Positions 1,541-6,492 of a stretch of 10,029 nucleotides of DNA are shown in pieces (the stretch's first letter is position 1; each line of letters starts with the position of its first letter). The DNA is from a bacterium (GTDB lineage Archaea; Nanoarchaeota; Nanoarchaeia; Woesearchaeales; UBA10216), in NCBI GenBank assembly GCA_024206195.1, contig JAAGZO010001297.1:1-10029 (forward strand), given 5' to 3'. The notes below the pieces were generated by a model, which saw only the letters and a program-made list of their open reading frames with translations, was not told the DNA's origin and searched no databases. A program made the translations under genes and the position numbers.

Positions 1541-1984
1541 ATGGAAAAGATAACTATACAAGGAATAGAAGAAAAGAAGTCGAAAACTAATGTACCTTTT
1601 TGGGCAGTTAAGTTTACTGATGGTAGAAGTGGTACAGTTTGGGATGACCAAATTGCAAACTATATGAGCAAAGATGTTAAGATTGGTGGTTCTTGTGAGG
1701 TTGAAATTAAAACAACACCAAGCGGATATAATAACATTAGAAGTGTTAATTTTGAAAGCGCACAAGGAAACACTCAACCGGTACAAGAGAAAGTTGTTGA
1801 TGTTGTGCCAAGTGTGCAGAATAACGCACCTAATCCACAGAGAGTAGGATTATATATTAAGTTGGCTGTTGAGATGTTAATTGCTGCCCCAGTTGAAGGA
1901 AAAACTGTTGAAGAAAATCTTTGTGAGAACATACAAGAAATTAAGAAACTTGAAGAGTTTACTATTGGTCTGTTGAGTCAATAA
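1541..1984 (+). CDS. OB-fold-like protein, possible single-stranded DNA-binding protein
   Basis: This 147-aa protein has two parts. Residues 1-72 look like a small OB-fold: strand ITIQGIEEK, then VPFWAVKFTDGRSGTVWDD, then a strand-rich segment with GGSCEVEIKTTP and a closing IRSVNF. The aromatic and basic residues on these strands are typical of nucleic-acid-binding OB-folds in phages. A Pro/Gln/Asn linker (about 73-100) leads to a helical C-terminus of ~45 residues. The start is fixed by a strong Shine-Dalgarno site. It leads the promoter-driven cluster, and its stop overlaps the next ATG (TAATG). Inferred role: binding ssDNA during replication or recombination. Other OB-fold roles are possible; the acidic C-terminal tip typical of bacterial SSB is absent. 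Confidence 0.6.
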   Translation: MEKITIQGIEEKKSKTNVPFWAVKFTDGRSGTVWDDQIANYMSKDVKIGGSCEVEIKTTPSGYNNIRSVNFESAQGNTQPVQEKVVDVVPSVQNNAPNPQRVGLYIKLAVEMLIAAPVEGKTVEENLCENIQEIKKLEEFTIGLLSQ

Positions 1985-2649: not shown

Positions 2650-2679
2650 GACTTGCAGGTTCGAATCCTGCCGTTTGCT
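2650..2679 (+). other. tRNA 3'-end-like sequence (T arm plus acceptor strand), possible attachment site
   Basis: GCAGG (2655-2659), loop TTCGAAT and CCTGC (2667-2671) form a textbook tRNA T arm, followed by a seven-base acceptor strand CGTTTGC and a T at 2679. GCAGACG at 2585-2591 could pair with the acceptor (one G-T pair), but the 63 bases between contain no acceptable D arm or anticodon arm, so a complete tRNA is not supported. Viral genomes often carry just the 3' end of a host tRNA as the attP core for integration, and this fits that pattern. No integrase is in the window. An intron-containing, decayed or unusual tRNA gene is the alternative. Confidence 0.5.
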
Positions 2680-3177: not shown

Positions 3178-3289
3178 GGATGATGTTATATTAAGTGGAG
3201 AGGTGGGGTTGCGTGGGTTTATGAATGTTTATGTGTCTTATTTGGTTATTTTGTTGGTGGAGATGGGAACTAAAGCCATGCTGTCGTAA
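3170..3289 (+). CDS. Possible 39-aa small hydrophobic protein
   Basis: ATG 3170 overlaps the end of the HNH gene by eight bases and opens a frame of 39 codons to TAA at 3287-3289. The second half (VYVSYLVILLVEM) is hydrophobic enough for a short membrane segment. There is no Shine-Dalgarno site. The DNA here is strikingly rich in G and T and poor in C, like the end of the HNH gene, so the hydrophobic codons could be a by-product of composition. The stop codon lies inside the left arm of a long inverted repeat. Confidence 0.35.
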   Translation: MSEDDVILSGEVGLRGFMNVYVSYLVILLVEMGTKAMLS

Positions 3290-3366
3290 ACGATAGCCTA
3301 TTAAGGCTCGTTATATATCAGTTAGCAAGCTAACTGTTCACACAAAGCTTCTCTGGCTGTTTACGA
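3284..3366 (+). repeat. Long-stem structured element with internal hairpin
   Basis: TCGTAAAC (3284-3291) plus AGCC (3295-3298) are complementary to GGCT-GTTTACGA (3355-3366), forming a 12-bp stem with a three-base bulge. Inside sits a perfect 8-bp hairpin, CAGTTAGC-AA-GCTAACTG (3319-3336). A smaller competing hairpin AGCC-TATTAA-GGCT lies between. As RNA this would be a stable branched structure; as DNA it could extrude a cruciform. It starts at the end of the HNH-linked frames, so it may end that transcript, or be part of a replication origin or a small structured RNA. Confidence 0.65.
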
Positions 3367-3374
3367 GCTATTTG

Positions 3375-3394
3375 GCTAAAACTCTCGTTTTAGC
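3375..3394 (+). repeat. Perfect 8-bp hairpin with TCTC loop
   Basis: GCTAAAAC (3375-3382) is exactly complementary to GTTTTAGC (3387-3394) around the four-base loop TCTC. It follows the larger structured element by nine bases. Confidence 0.75.
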
Positions 3395-3401
3395 TGATTT
3401 A

Positions 3402-3421
3402 AGCTAGCTTTTTAGCTAGCT
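3402..3421 (+). repeat. AGCTAGCT palindrome pair
   Basis: Two copies of the self-complementary octamer AGCTAGCT (3402-3409, 3414-3421) are separated by TTTT. They can pair with each other or fold singly. A 12-base form of the same palindrome recurs at 4005-4016, so the motif flanks the gene-poor segment on both sides. Confidence 0.75.
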
Positions 3422-3480
3422 ACCCCCCGTAAGCATAAGAATCGTCACTTTCGTTCCTCATCTTAAGCTTAAGCAACTGC

Positions 3481-3604
3481 GTTGAGCCGGCTTAGCCTGC
3501 TTGCTAAGCCTCCACCCCCACTCGTATCGCCTGTCGGGCTCACTCGCCCCCCTCGGCTCCGCTGCGGCTTGCCTCGCCCGCTCGCCTCGGCTCGCGGGCT
3601 TAGC
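3481..3604 (+). other. GC-rich, hairpin-prone island
   Basis: Base composition changes abruptly here. In an otherwise AT-rich window these ~125 bases are mostly C and G, with repeated CTCG, GGCTC and GCCTCG motifs and C runs on the + strand. It opens with a perfect hairpin, GGCTTAGC-CTGCTT-GCTAAGCC (3489-3510), and closes with another copy of GGCTTAGC (3597-3604), so the whole island can be closed by pairing 3503-3510 with 3597-3604. Frames across it code only low-complexity Pro/Leu/Arg peptides and I do not call a gene. An acquired repeat element, replication origin or packaging signal are possible readings. Confidence 0.7.
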
Positions 3605-3616
3605 TTGTATGAATAT

Positions 3617-3760
3617 ATGTTTATTATGTATGATGCGATTATTGGGTTTTGTTTTTTTGTGTTTGTATGTAGGACACCAGAGAATAATAAAATATATAAA
3701 CTAAAGAGTTTTAGTAATATCAACATACCAATGACGGACTTCAAGAAATTTTTTAGTTAA
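3617..3760 (+). CDS. Doubtful 47-aa protein with one membrane segment
   Basis: From ATG 3617 the frame gives a hydrophobic N-terminal segment (IIGFCFFVFVC) followed by a basic, polar tail ending FKKFFS. This would be a single-pass membrane peptide. A second overlapping frame (ATG 3609 to TAA 3704, 31 aa) is also hydrophobic, which suggests the T-rich DNA rather than selection is the cause. No ribosome binding site is seen, and a TATA box at 3693 lies within it. I list it only because nothing else explains this stretch. Confidence 0.22.
   Translation: MFIMYDAIIGFCFFVFVCRTPENNKIYKLKSFSNINIPMTDFKKFFS
3693..3700 (+). promoter_or_regulatory. Orphan TATA box (TATATAAA)
   Basis: This octamer is identical to the boxes at 4062 and 9661, and has A-rich sequence before it. 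By the same spacing (29 nt), transcription would begin near 3722. No start codon sits there (the nearest ATG at 3731 opens only nine codons), so the transcript would be non-coding or have a leader of about 75 nt before the frame at 3799. Confidence 0.5.
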
Positions 3761-3798
3761 GCGCTTGATTATGGGGTTGGAAATGTGTGGGTTGGATA

Positions 3799-3972
3799 AT
3801 GAGGAGTGGTGCAGGTGACCTTAATCAAATCCACAAGAACCTCCGGTTTGATGATTCGCCGGAAGTAGGGGGAAGTAGCCCCTACGTGAGAAGTATACAA
3901 GAAGATGATTCACCACCAGGTAGAAAGAGAGATGCAGCCTCGAAAAAACCCTCTTTTAACCATTGGTCATAG
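3799..3972 (+). CDS. Possible 57-aa hydrophilic protein, or a structured RNA in its place
   Basis: The frame from ATG 3799 (open upstream to GTG 3787) encodes a very hydrophilic product with two DDSP motifs and a basic C-terminus (GRKRDAASKKPSF). The two DDSP-coding sites (3850-3860 and 3904-3914) differ only at third codon positions, a weak hint of coding. Against this, the DNA forms several stems: TGTGGGTT (3786-3793) with AATCCACA (3828-3835), and GTAGGGG (3865-3871) with CCCCTAC (3879-3885). There is no ribosome binding site and no relatives were recognised. With the TATA box at 3693, a non-coding RNA of about 240 nt ending near the T-rich run at 3952-3957 is equally likely. Confidence 0.35.
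   Translation: MRSGAGDLNQIHKNLRFDDSPEVGGSSPYVRSIQEDDSPPGRKRDAASKKPSFNHWS
3865..3885 (+). repeat. Perfect 7-bp GC-rich hairpin
   Basis: GTAGGGG (3865-3871) pairs with CCCCTAC (3879-3885) around GAAGTAG. It is preceded by CCGG (3843-3846) and CCGG (3859-3862), which can close a second small stem. Together with the long-range 3786/3828 pairing, this supports a structured transcript. Confidence 0.6.
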
Positions 3973-4004
3973 TCGCAGCTATGTTAATAAAGGGCTTTTA
4001 GCTT

Positions 4005-4016
4005 AGCTAGCTAGCT
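4005..4016 (+). repeat. 12-base perfect palindrome AGCTAGCTAGCT
   Basis: This is an extended form of the AGCTAGCT units at 3402-3421. It sits in TTAGC-rich sequence (TTTTAGCTTAGC before, GTTTTAG after) about 45 bases upstream of the main late-type promoter. It could be an operator for that promoter or the right boundary of the hairpin-rich island. A second inverted repeat, CATAG/CTATG (3968-3983), lies just upstream. Confidence 0.65.
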
Positions 4017-4061
4017 GTTTTAGTTAAGGAGAATAATTCTAGTCTACATAAAACCGAAAAG

Positions 4062-4463: not shown

Positions 4464-4912
4464 AAAATCCCGAAAAAGTAGAACAGGGTAAGAAGTCAAG
4501 ACGTCTGGGGGCGGCTTTTGAGGTGGCTGTACGTAAAGATTTAGAGTCTCAGGGGTATATTGTTGATAAATGGACAAATAACATTGATTTAGACACCGGA
4601 GAGATTGTAAAAGCCAAAACTCGGTTCTTTAGGGGCAAACCCTTAGGTCTAGGGAGTGGATTCCCGGATTTTCTCGCTATGATGCCTGTATTTGAGTCCA
4701 GAAACAGATTAAAGACCAAATATCGAGTAATTCTAGTAGAATGTAAAACAAATAACATATTATCAAAAACAGAGAAACTGAAAATGAACGCATATATTAA
4801 AAAGGGAATTGATTGTTGGGTGGCATATAAAGATGGCAGAGATAAATTGTACCGAAACTTTGTGGAATACAAAGAACGTAATACAGTACGCAGAAAAAAA
4901 ATTAGGAATTGA
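4460..4912 (+). CDS. PD-(D/E)XK-family nuclease
   Basis: This 150-aa protein has the features of a restriction-like nuclease fold. An N-terminal helix with RRLGAAFEVAVRKDL contributes E21, a central strand and turn GSGFPDFLAM gives the PD pair (D70), and ILVECKTNN gives E94-x-K96. A basic helix (SKTEKLKMNAYIKKGID) and a WVAYK strand follow, the order seen in archaeal Holliday-junction resolvase-like and VRR-NUC-like nucleases. All catalytic residues are present, so it should cleave DNA with Mg2+. Its 3' end contains the start of terL (80-nt overlap). Possible jobs are resolving branched DNA before packaging or assisting terminase cleavage; both are inferred from position. Confidence 0.78.
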   Translation: MKNPEKVEQGKKSRRLGAAFEVAVRKDLESQGYIVDKWTNNIDLDTGEIVKAKTRFFRGKPLGLGSGFPDFLAMMPVFESRNRLKTKYRVILVECKTNNILSKTEKLKMNAYIKKGIDCWVAYKDGRDKLYRNFVEYKERNTVRRKKIRN

Positions 4913-6125
4913 ATTAGATGATTGGCAAAAAGAATATATCACACACGAAGGAAACACTGTGGTTAGAGCAGGTAGGCAATCTGGGAAAAGTTTTGCGGAA
5001 TCGCTTAGAGTTGCGTTGTTCGCATTACTTAATAATAAGACATCTACGCTTATTATCGCCTCGGTGGATAGACAATCAATCGAATTACTGGAAAAGGTTA
5101 AGAGTCAAATTATGGGGCTTGCCAAAAACCAAATCAAAGGAAGACCAACATTTCATAAAATCGAACTCAAAAACGGGTCTATCATTAGAGCGGAACCTGC
5201 CGGACAGACGGGATACGGACTTCGTGGGTTCACGGTCGATAAGCTTGTCGCCGACGAAGCCCATTATATTCCCGAGGCGGTATTTGTCGCTGTCCAACCA
5301 ATGTTGGCAACTACGGGAGGGACAATCGACTTACTATCTACCCCTAGGGGTAATGTCGGATTTTTTTACGACTGCTGTCAAGACAAAGAGAACTTCTACG
5401 AAATTCATATAATATCAGCAGACTGCCCGAGAATCACAGACGAATTTCTAAAACAACAAAAACAATCTATGAGTAAATTACAATTTGCACAAGAGTATGA
5501 GGCCATCTTTATCGACGCTCTCCAAGCCTTCTTCCCTAAAGATTTAATAGATGAATGTATAGGTGAGACAGGATTAACAAATGGACGAAATTATTTAGGA
5601 GTAGACTTTGCGGGATATGGGGGAGACCAAAACGCATTCATCACTCTAGAAAACAAAGGGAAAAGGAGTTATGTTAAGAATTATGTAATAACCGAAAAAG
5701 TGAGGGCTTGGGAAACAGTCAATGAAATTATTCGGTTAAACGAACAACACAATTACAAACAAATCGGGGTAGATGATGGGGGACTAGGGACACCAATACT
5801 AGATTATATCCTACGAGAAACCTCATTAAAGAGAAAGACAATCGGACTTAACAACGCCTCACGGAGTATCAACGCCGACAAGGGAGTGAAGAAGTTGTTG
5901 AAGGAGGATATGTATGGGAACCTAAAAATGATGATGGAACAAGGATTATTAAAATTCCCAAAGGACGACGAATTAATCAGAAGCTTAACAAGTATACAAT
6001 TTGAAATCGATAAGGAAACGAAAAGAATCAAAATCTACGGGAAATACTCACATATCACAGAGGGACTGATAAGGGCGGCGTGGTTGGTGAAAACAAAAGG
6101 ATTAAATATTATGGCTTTCTGTTAA
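4833..6125 (+). CDS. terL: Terminase large subunit (DNA-packaging ATPase and nuclease)
   Basis: From ATG 4833 the protein has 430 aa. The N-terminal ATPase carries an adenine-side segment (DDWQKEYI), Walker A RAGRQSGKS (45-53), Walker B LVADEAH with D141-E142, and a coupling motif STPRGN (169-174). The C-terminal RNase H-like nuclease starts near 253 with YLGVDFAGYGGD (D258) and has a second acidic site GVDDGG (D314/D315). Length and order match phage terminases. It cuts concatemeric viral DNA and pumps it through the portal. A TTG at 4809 would add eight residues, but ATG is preferred. The start lies 80 nt inside the upstream nuclease gene, suggesting coupled translation. The next gene follows four bases after the stop. 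Confidence 0.93.
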   Translation: MAEINCTETLWNTKNVIQYAEKKLGIELDDWQKEYITHEGNTVVRAGRQSGKSFAESLRVALFALLNNKTSTLIIASVDRQSIELLEKVKSQIMGLAKNQIKGRPTFHKIELKNGSIIRAEPAGQTGYGLRGFTVDKLVADEAHYIPEAVFVAVQPMLATTGGTIDLLSTPRGNVGFFYDCCQDKENFYEIHIISADCPRITDEFLKQQKQSMSKLQFAQEYEAIFIDALQAFFPKDLIDECIGETGLTNGRNYLGVDFAGYGGDQNAFITLENKGKRSYVKNYVITEKVRAWETVNEIIRLNEQHNYKQIGVDDGGLGTPILDYILRETSLKRKTIGLNNASRSINADKGVKKLLKEDMYGNLKMMMEQGLLKFPKDDELIRSLTSIQFEIDKETKRIKIYGKYSHITEGLIRAAWLVKTKGLNIMAFC

Positions 6126-6129
6126 TTCA

Positions 6130-6492
6130 ATGGCACACACAGGAATATTCGCAACGTCGGCAGAATGTATCTTTAAAATGGGGAATGGTTACGATTCAAC
6201 CAATGTAGATGAGGATAGAATCAATGAATTATGTTCACAAGTAGAAGGGTTCTGTTGTGCTCTGGCGCGTTACGACTTCGCGACAAACTGGGCGGCATTG
6301 GATGCAGTTACCAAAACACTTCTGACAGAAATAGAAAGTAACTACGTAGGATATTATGGAGCAATGTATGCGGCTGCTGGATATGGGTCACAAAGGGAAC
6401 AGGAGAATATTATCAATACGTGTTGGGCACGATTCGTTCAATGTATCGGATTATTAAAAGACCAAAAGACAGTCACGGAGATAAAACCATAA
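6130..6492 (+). CDS. Small head-tail connector-like virion protein
   Basis: This 120-aa protein starts four bases after the terL stop. The pattern FATSAECIFKMG-N-DST at the N-terminus, an alpha-helical middle (DRINELCSQVEGFCCALARY then NWAALDAVTKTLLTEIESNY) and the end REQENIINTCWARFVQCIGL with LLKDQKTVTEI resemble a recurrent group of short helical tailed-phage proteins encoded beside packaging and head genes. Many of these are thought to be gp6/gp15-type connectors that sit below the portal. The resemblance is recalled from pattern, not from a search. It overlaps the next gene by one base (TAATG). It has no enzyme motif. Confidence 0.6.
   Translation: MAHTGIFATSAECIFKMGNGYDSTNVDEDRINELCSQVEGFCCALARYDFATNWAALDAVTKTLLTEIESNYVGYYGAMYAAAGYGSQREQENIINTCWARFVQCIGLLKDQKTVTEIKP

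Follow-up and report, generated by a model that had tools for sequence, protein, structure and literature searches.

What does a very small virus keep in a stretch of some 740 bases that holds no confident gene and is crowded with inverted repeats? The window studied here (the whole stretch of DNA that was analysed, 10,029 bases) belongs to a large uncultivated clade of circular tailed-type virus genomes. The initial annotation had singled out positions 3284 to 4020 as a structured gap likely to be functional, with a replication origin, a recombination or packaging site, or a cluster of structured RNAs as candidates. Here we report that the same folded plan has been kept in relatives though the letters have largely changed, with two-sided substitutions in the stems of the kind that annotation had proposed to look for. 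Function is thereby strongly supported: the island is very likely functional, and is probably either a structured RNA not yet described or a viral control region. From the candidate list we rank a structured RNA first and retain the replication origin and packaging site, while a recombination site found no support.

Pfam searches of ten window proteins returned a large terminase subunit (PF03237, E 3.9e-10; positions 4836 to 6122, plus strand), which serves as the landmark downstream of the element, together with a portal (PF04860, E 3e-12), a staphylococcal-type nuclease and an HNH protein. PHROGs added tail-fibre-like matches among the window proteins and a major-head-protein match in the related locus L024 (E 3e-8). 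Megablast against 50,697 phage records gave zero matches to the window. The terminase has 1590 homologues in the protein collection, few of them named among the 120 listed; the best-ranked annotated one belongs to Halogranum tailed virus 1, with 28.9% identity at 95% query coverage. As relatives we used loci drawn from viral contigs, which together with the window make a non-redundant set of 171. In one of these (L012) the terminase frame is broken, at about 4995 to 6286, with pieces in two frames.

Five of the contigs (L022, L023, L024, L025 and L030) carry end repeats of 127 or 99 bases and are read as complete circular assemblies. Their genomes measure 10.2-12.8 kb with the repeat excluded, and the clade as a whole spans roughly 10-13 kb, compared with 143,855 bp for the record of Halogranum tailed virus 1. 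The smallest genome of an isolated tailed phage is given as 11.6 kb (PMC7762592), which places the clade near the lower size limit of tailed phages. TATA-like boxes and the nearest relative suggest that the host is probably archaeal. A search of genome contigs with the conserved core pattern described below yielded three loci (Sulfurospirillum, Halorubrum, Pseudomonadales) with core scores at chance level (E 0.58 to 7.6) and thus no host, and a second core pattern found nothing in viral contigs.

The inverted repeats named in the island are present in the sequence, far above chance, and conserved in relatives. The outer stem pairs TCGTAAAC (3284-3291) with GTTTACGA (3359-3366) around an inner hairpin at 3319-3336 (CAGTTAG-CAAG-CTAACTG), which has 7 bp and a 4-base loop, not the 8 bp first reported. 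Next come an 8-bp hairpin at 3375-3394 (GCTAAAAC-TCTC-GTTTTAGC), the paired repeat AGCTAGCT-TTTT-AGCTAGCT at 3402-3421, and a GC-rich block at 3481-3604, C-rich on the plus strand, that contains the hairpin GGCTTAGC-CTGCTT-GCTAAGCC at 3489-3510. GC content is 0.605 in 3401-3600 against 0.389 in the whole window, and several relatives show GC-rich blocks at the same place (by eye). The proposed closure of this block by its own ends, GCTAAGCC with GGCTTAGC, does exist, but the same GCTAAGCC pairs equally well with GGCTTAGC at 3489. The 12-mer palindrome AGCTAGCTAGCT at 4005-4016 completes the set.

These repeats are unevenly spread. Counting perfect hairpins with stems of 7 bp or more and loops of 3-11 gives seven in 3284-3604, one in 3605-4020 and three in the remaining window, and the hairpin-rich part is thereby narrowed to 3284-3604. 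The plus-strand fold of 3260-4030 (771 nt) has a z-score of -3.9 (20 shuffles) and the minus-strand fold of 3268-3670 one of -5.0. The right part, 3605-4020, has ordinary hairpin density though it ends in the 4005 palindrome; it holds the best conserved DNA sequence of the island, at 3634-3699, and two smaller conserved elements. That core was missed by the initial annotation, as was the organisation of the palindromes, which are not loosely assembled but form the helices of one nested module.

The island's description as gene-poor holds. Searched with tblastn against the other 170 loci at E 0.01, the open reading frames at 3787 and 3122 had zero matches, and the frame at 3482 had four weak ones (E 5e-4 to 0.008), which we read as DNA similarity because they overlie the GC-rich block and the core. 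A coding role was rejected, since two of the frames have no relatives and the matches of the third track conserved DNA. We also set aside a recombination or attachment site: no integrase was named among ten window and ten L024 proteins scanned with Pfam and ten mixed proteins scanned with PHROGs. Nor was a replication initiator or polymerase named in these scans, which covered the small open reading frames in part.

Immediately right of the GC-rich block and upstream of the terminase gene lies the core (3634-3699, plus strand), which comprises a box TGCGATTATTGGG, a G/T-rich tract, a second box TGTAGGANCCCAGA and an A/T block; the profile match spans 3634-3687, and the A/T block up to 3699 was added by eye. 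The core was found at E up to 0.05 in 61 of the 171 non-redundant loci; many loci stop short of the core region. It is present in single copy in each, and all 61 matches share the orientation of the terminase (plus); the reversed control gave 0. With an earlier iterated profile and a limit of E 1, 58 of 108 loci had it and none of the reversed sequences did, one locus having an extra chance-level match on the opposite strand. Where at least 1500 bases are available upstream of the terminase (54 loci), 31 have the core at E up to 0.01; among the remaining 23, several have weak or right-half matches only and others none. In 48 loci the terminase match follows the start of the core at a distance of 81 to 1226 bases.

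Archaeal TATA boxes lie about 26 bp ahead of the transcription start. Measured from the A/T-block anchor, an ATG follows after 28-29 bases in three of the 58 profile rows (L004, L085, L037) and a start after 34-41 bases in six; two further rows have starts nearer, and the rest have them further away or have no open reading frame in range. This spacing suggests a promoter in the members with a start at 28-29 or 34-41 bases. The right part of the island would contain a promoter-like core, which in some relatives directly precedes an open reading frame and in several precedes the terminase.

Four of the five complete genomes (L022, L023, L024, L025) have exactly one core; in L030 it is absent. 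It falls within the longest stretch free of ATG-started open reading frames of 60 codons in L022 and L023, four bases beyond the end of that stretch in L025, and in a shorter gap in L024. A single copy adjoining the terminase is what a cis-acting DNA element would provide, that is, a replication origin and/or packaging site in which host or viral proteins recognise hairpins or cruciforms that adjoin an A/T-rich block for unwinding. The G/T-only tract and A/T block of the core fit such a site, as does the lack of a named replication initiator or polymerase in the scanned proteins, which makes an origin served by the host necessary on that account; L030, a complete genome without the core, speaks against it. 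A weak likeness to single-strand binding proteins in one window protein can be counted in its favour as well. Weighed with the evidence on the fold given below, a DNA element seems to us a possible reading, though not the likeliest.

The protein in question is small (1541-1981, plus strand) and conserved in four aligned relatives at 22-38% identity. Its predicted structure (mean pLDDT 78, pTM 0.46) has the strand-helix order of an OB fold and a C-terminal helical hairpin, and its likeness to SSB/RPA is weak (best Foldseek E 1.5e-3); the model makes a single-strand binding protein possible.

Upstream of the core, strong folding recurs in relatives. Across 24 loci (24 shuffles each), the 250 bases upstream of the core have mean z-scores of -3.5 on the plus and -4.4 on the minus strand, compared with -0.5 on both strands for the 250 bases downstream and +0.1 (plus) and -0.05 (minus) for a coding control 2.5 kb further on (23 loci). 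Minus-strand values of individual loci include -6.1 (L009), -3.9 (L002) and -2.2 (L025). Hairpins occur at 11.2 per kb upstream of the core (21,643 bases) versus 0.74 per kb in downstream coding sequence (176,291 bases).

The outermost part of the plan, P1/P2 (3284-3366), is an 8-bp long-range stem around the hairpin at 3319-3336. A descriptor of it (perfect 8-bp outer stem enclosing 60-105 bases, among them a hairpin with 6 bp or more) matched 35 of 50 core-bearing upstream regions; dinucleotide shuffles matched in 24 of 1000 cases, downstream windows in 3 of 184. The 50 regions came from 60 loci with usable core coordinates, less L049 (a near copy of L012) and those with fewer than 150 bases upstream; 15 of them fail the descriptor. 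The P1 arms found have 33 different sequences. An earlier count had given 29 of 41 loci, 14 of 820 shuffles and 3 of 148 downstream windows.

Turnover within P1 was followed in alignment A5, which keeps 8 of the 13 sequences of A4; A4 and A3 were dropped for poor alignment of P1. Two-sided changes affect six of its eight P1 pairs (13 cells), a result reached by 0 of 500 shuffles and destroyed by sliding the partner. The rows were chosen for having the stem, which favours the better-behaved sequences, so the alignment shows sequence turnover and is not an independent test, and the lack of G.U in it follows by construction. A covariance model of the P1 pairs, searched against 76 sources, gave nine strong matches (E 2e-11 or lower), namely the eight building sequences and L049, followed by L066 and L069 (5e-4) and L061 (0.023); of its 42 matches up to E 5 the remainder prove little. 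In eight locus pairs, 44 two-sided changes were counted against 18 to wobble (7 plus, 11 minus) and 33 to mismatch; related loci are not independent, and this affects such counts across relatives.

Two near-identical loci offer a closer view. L012 (about 3630-3680) and L049 (about 1245-1320) differ in a stem and its inner hairpin, which stay paired around a kept loop, TTACATC. Over these 90% identical loci, paired sites show ten two-sided changes, four to mismatch and one to wobble, as if hairpins had been exchanged whole. Such replacement would suit a mutational by-product, in which template switching or whole-hairpin exchange renews palindromes and the fold is unselected. That account leaves the nested plan, the core, the tetraloop bias and the A.A/G.G restriction described next unexplained, and we consider it very improbable, the least probable of the four readings weighed here.

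Two further helices, P3 and P4, lie between P1/P2 and the core. P3, the hairpin at 3375-3394, has the loop GAGA (GNRA type) on the minus strand, and L001, L012 and L047 also have minus-strand GNRA-loop hairpins with different stem sequences. P4 (3430-3471) is a helix with a single A.A mismatch (3435/3466) in the context C-A-UAA / UUA-A-G; helices of this type sit nearer the core and share the context C-N-UA / UA-N-G. All ten P4 instances with at least 9 Watson-Crick pairs have either A.A (six) or G.G (four), where a shuffle set yields 0.58 instances. All 17 instances, in 14 of 47 loci, comprise nine A.A, five G.G and three others, while a coding control of 176 kb gave 11 of mixed mismatch type. 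The restriction to A.A and G.G, which read on the minus strand is U.U or C.C, suggests a specific non-canonical pair.

Of 103 four-base hairpins, 14 on the minus and 4 on the plus strand carry a stable RNA tetraloop on the correct closing pair; in shuffles the corresponding counts are 11 (minus) and 8 (plus) of 1863. Such loops are enriched, chiefly on the minus strand. In DNA too, C(GNNA)G and G(CNNG)C give stable loops, so the tetraloops are compatible with DNA as well. Even so, the nested plan, the strand-biased RNA-type tetraloops and the A.A/G.G restriction fit RNA better than a DNA site.

Signs of the transcribed strand diverge. The tetraloops lean to the minus strand, which also has the relatively better fold in 16 of 24 loci. 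Mismatches lean the other way and count against a minus-strand RNA: in helices of at least 10 pairs, purine.purine (27) exceeds pyrimidine.pyrimidine (12), which favours plus. Wobble pairs give no answer; helices of at least 10 pairs with one mismatch have five G.U on the plus strand, five on the minus and 39 other mismatches, a weak test given that many of the helices are chance ones or few in number. Conserved pairing with two-sided changes, expected of a structured noncoding RNA, was found in the descriptor counts, in the locus pairs and in A5, whose rows were selected for the stem, whereas the tolerance of G.U on the transcribed strand was not, there being no wobble excess on either strand. 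The lack of excess weighs against RNA and suits DNA; the small number of wobble changes in the eight locus pairs weighs against RNA too. Further points against RNA are that no clear promoter for the folded part is seen on either strand (by eye), that the A/T block resembles a rightward promoter in some members, and that the P1/P2 descriptor fails in 15 of 50 loci.

An RNA need not be independent. As an untranslated region, either the 3' end of the upstream operon or the leader of the terminase operon, the island would act in cis in the nascent transcript. It does lie between the upstream genes and the terminase, and transcripts coming from the left could terminate at the T-rich tract of the core; in several members the same strand carries T-arm-like tRNA sequences further upstream, which might, speculatively, be processing sites. 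Several relatives have a hairpin and then a T-run just left of P1 (by eye), which would stop readthrough, and in L008, L004 and L037 the genes immediately left of the element lie on the minus strand (partly by eye). With the tetraloops also leaning minus, we regard an untranslated region as unlikely.

Weighing the tetraloop, strand, mismatch, wobble and promoter evidence together, we tentatively favour a structured noncoding RNA as the identity of the folded part, ahead of a DNA origin or packaging site, at a rough probability of 0.45. The island would then be a main control region in the small circular genome of a tailed-type virus, and its left part (3284-3604; as long as about 500 bases in relatives) a folded element whose plan recurs: P1 around P2, one or more hairpins, P4 with its symmetric mismatch, and the GC-rich helices. 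This part would act as a structured noncoding RNA whose shape is selected while its sequence is nearly free. We observe conservation of core and folds, two-sided substitutions, position and orientation, and infer its transcription, strand, start site and any role: it would more likely be read leftwards, on the minus strand, from a start near the A/T block of the core, with the complement of the G/T tract, rich in A/C, as an unstructured 5' leader.

Smaller elements lie to the right of the core. The 28-mer TCAAGAAATTTTTTAGTTAAGCGCTTGA (3741-3768, plus strand) is conserved in the window, L009, L012, L047 and L049 of the 171 loci, a count that has no shuffle comparison. A hairpin of the form TTTAACC..GTTAATAA (TTTAACC..GTTAAnAA; 3955-3990, plus strand) recurs in the window, L009, L025, L002 and, on the opposite strand, L008 of the 171, compared with 0.33 per shuffle; in L009 and L025 it is also followed by GCTAGCTAGC. 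The 28-mer and the hairpin may be parts of a second noncoding transcript, the hairpin being its 3' part. Left of the terminase in L050 and L051, about 250 bases running from a TATA-like box to a T-run are nearly identical (by eye); this stretch, without an obvious open reading frame, is perhaps another noncoding transcript.

T-arm-like tRNA sequences of the GGTTCGAATCC type lie left of the island in the window (2655-2671, within a stretch of about 2580-2690) and elsewhere at L007 3008 and 3236, L016 1595, a copy in L022 at 10635, L058 985, L117 522 and L122 2798. In some, an acceptor-like stem can pair at close to normal spacing. ARAGORN called no tRNA in the window or in the L007, L016 and L022 contigs, and these sequences could be degenerate tRNAs or tRNA-like processing sites. 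The palindrome ATTCGGTATACCGAAT, or variants around TACCGAATAA, occurs at L058 2114 and L122 3033, partially at L037 1724, L081 1955, L089 2590 and L092 2217, and is absent from the window.

Rfam 15 covariance models (GOLLD, ROOL, OLE, phage pRNA and others) were applied at the gathering score. With E values up to 5 allowed, the window gave three matches, none of which reached gathering or fell within the island, and 12 relatives (114,173 bases) gave as their sole match a borderline tRNA in L122 (29.9 bits, cut-off 29), outside the element. Known RNA families were rejected, the element having no Rfam match. By behaviour, the closest kind is GOLLD/ROOL, of which we do not claim membership. These are structured RNAs found in phages and prophages, frequently close to tRNA islands, and are described as large, heavily folded, non-coding, phage-borne and of unknown function (PMC12286853); the element shares these traits, with tRNA-like sequence nearby in several members. 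It differs in size (about 320-500 nt, versus 659 and over 800 nt for GOLLD/ROOL; PMC12286853), in its lack of an Rfam match, in its transcript being putative, in its probably archaeal viruses and in its near-complete sequence turnover.

Origins offer other parallels. The intergenic region of filamentous phages and the single-strand origins of rolling-circle plasmids likewise line up hairpins in the largest gap between the genes of a small circular genome. They serve single-stranded DNA stages and need a rolling-circle initiator, whereas none was named in the proteins scanned here. Archaeal ORB origins combine an A/T-rich block with a conserved box, as the element does, and by eye CTCCAGAGAAAA, present in a few members, looks like half of an ORB box. 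An ORB-type origin was rejected, the resemblance to the consensus being lost in most listed members and no G-string standing at the expected side.

Titles and abstract beginnings in the open-access literature yielded no description of the clade or the element, and PMC12324425, in the part consulted, describes a different element. Judged from Rfam and this literature, the structured element is apparently undescribed, though of a known general kind. A bolder reading is a new class of large structured noncoding RNA in very small archaeal tailed viruses without a recognised replication protein, started at the core, its shape kept, covarying A.A/G.G pair included, while nearly all its sequence turns over, and driving a step usually carried out by proteins, such as priming replication or packaging; we hold this to be rather unlikely.

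These observations would add a clade-wide structured element without an Rfam match to the uncultivated tailed-type viruses. With no replication initiator named in the scans, the element is a natural place to ask about replication, packaging and regulation in this clade, and the core together with P1-P4 provides a defined stretch for transcript mapping, structure probing and read-depth tests. Two-sided changes combined with no wobble excess and with the A.A/G.G restriction also make it a case on which to test whether evolution alone can separate RNA folds from DNA folds.
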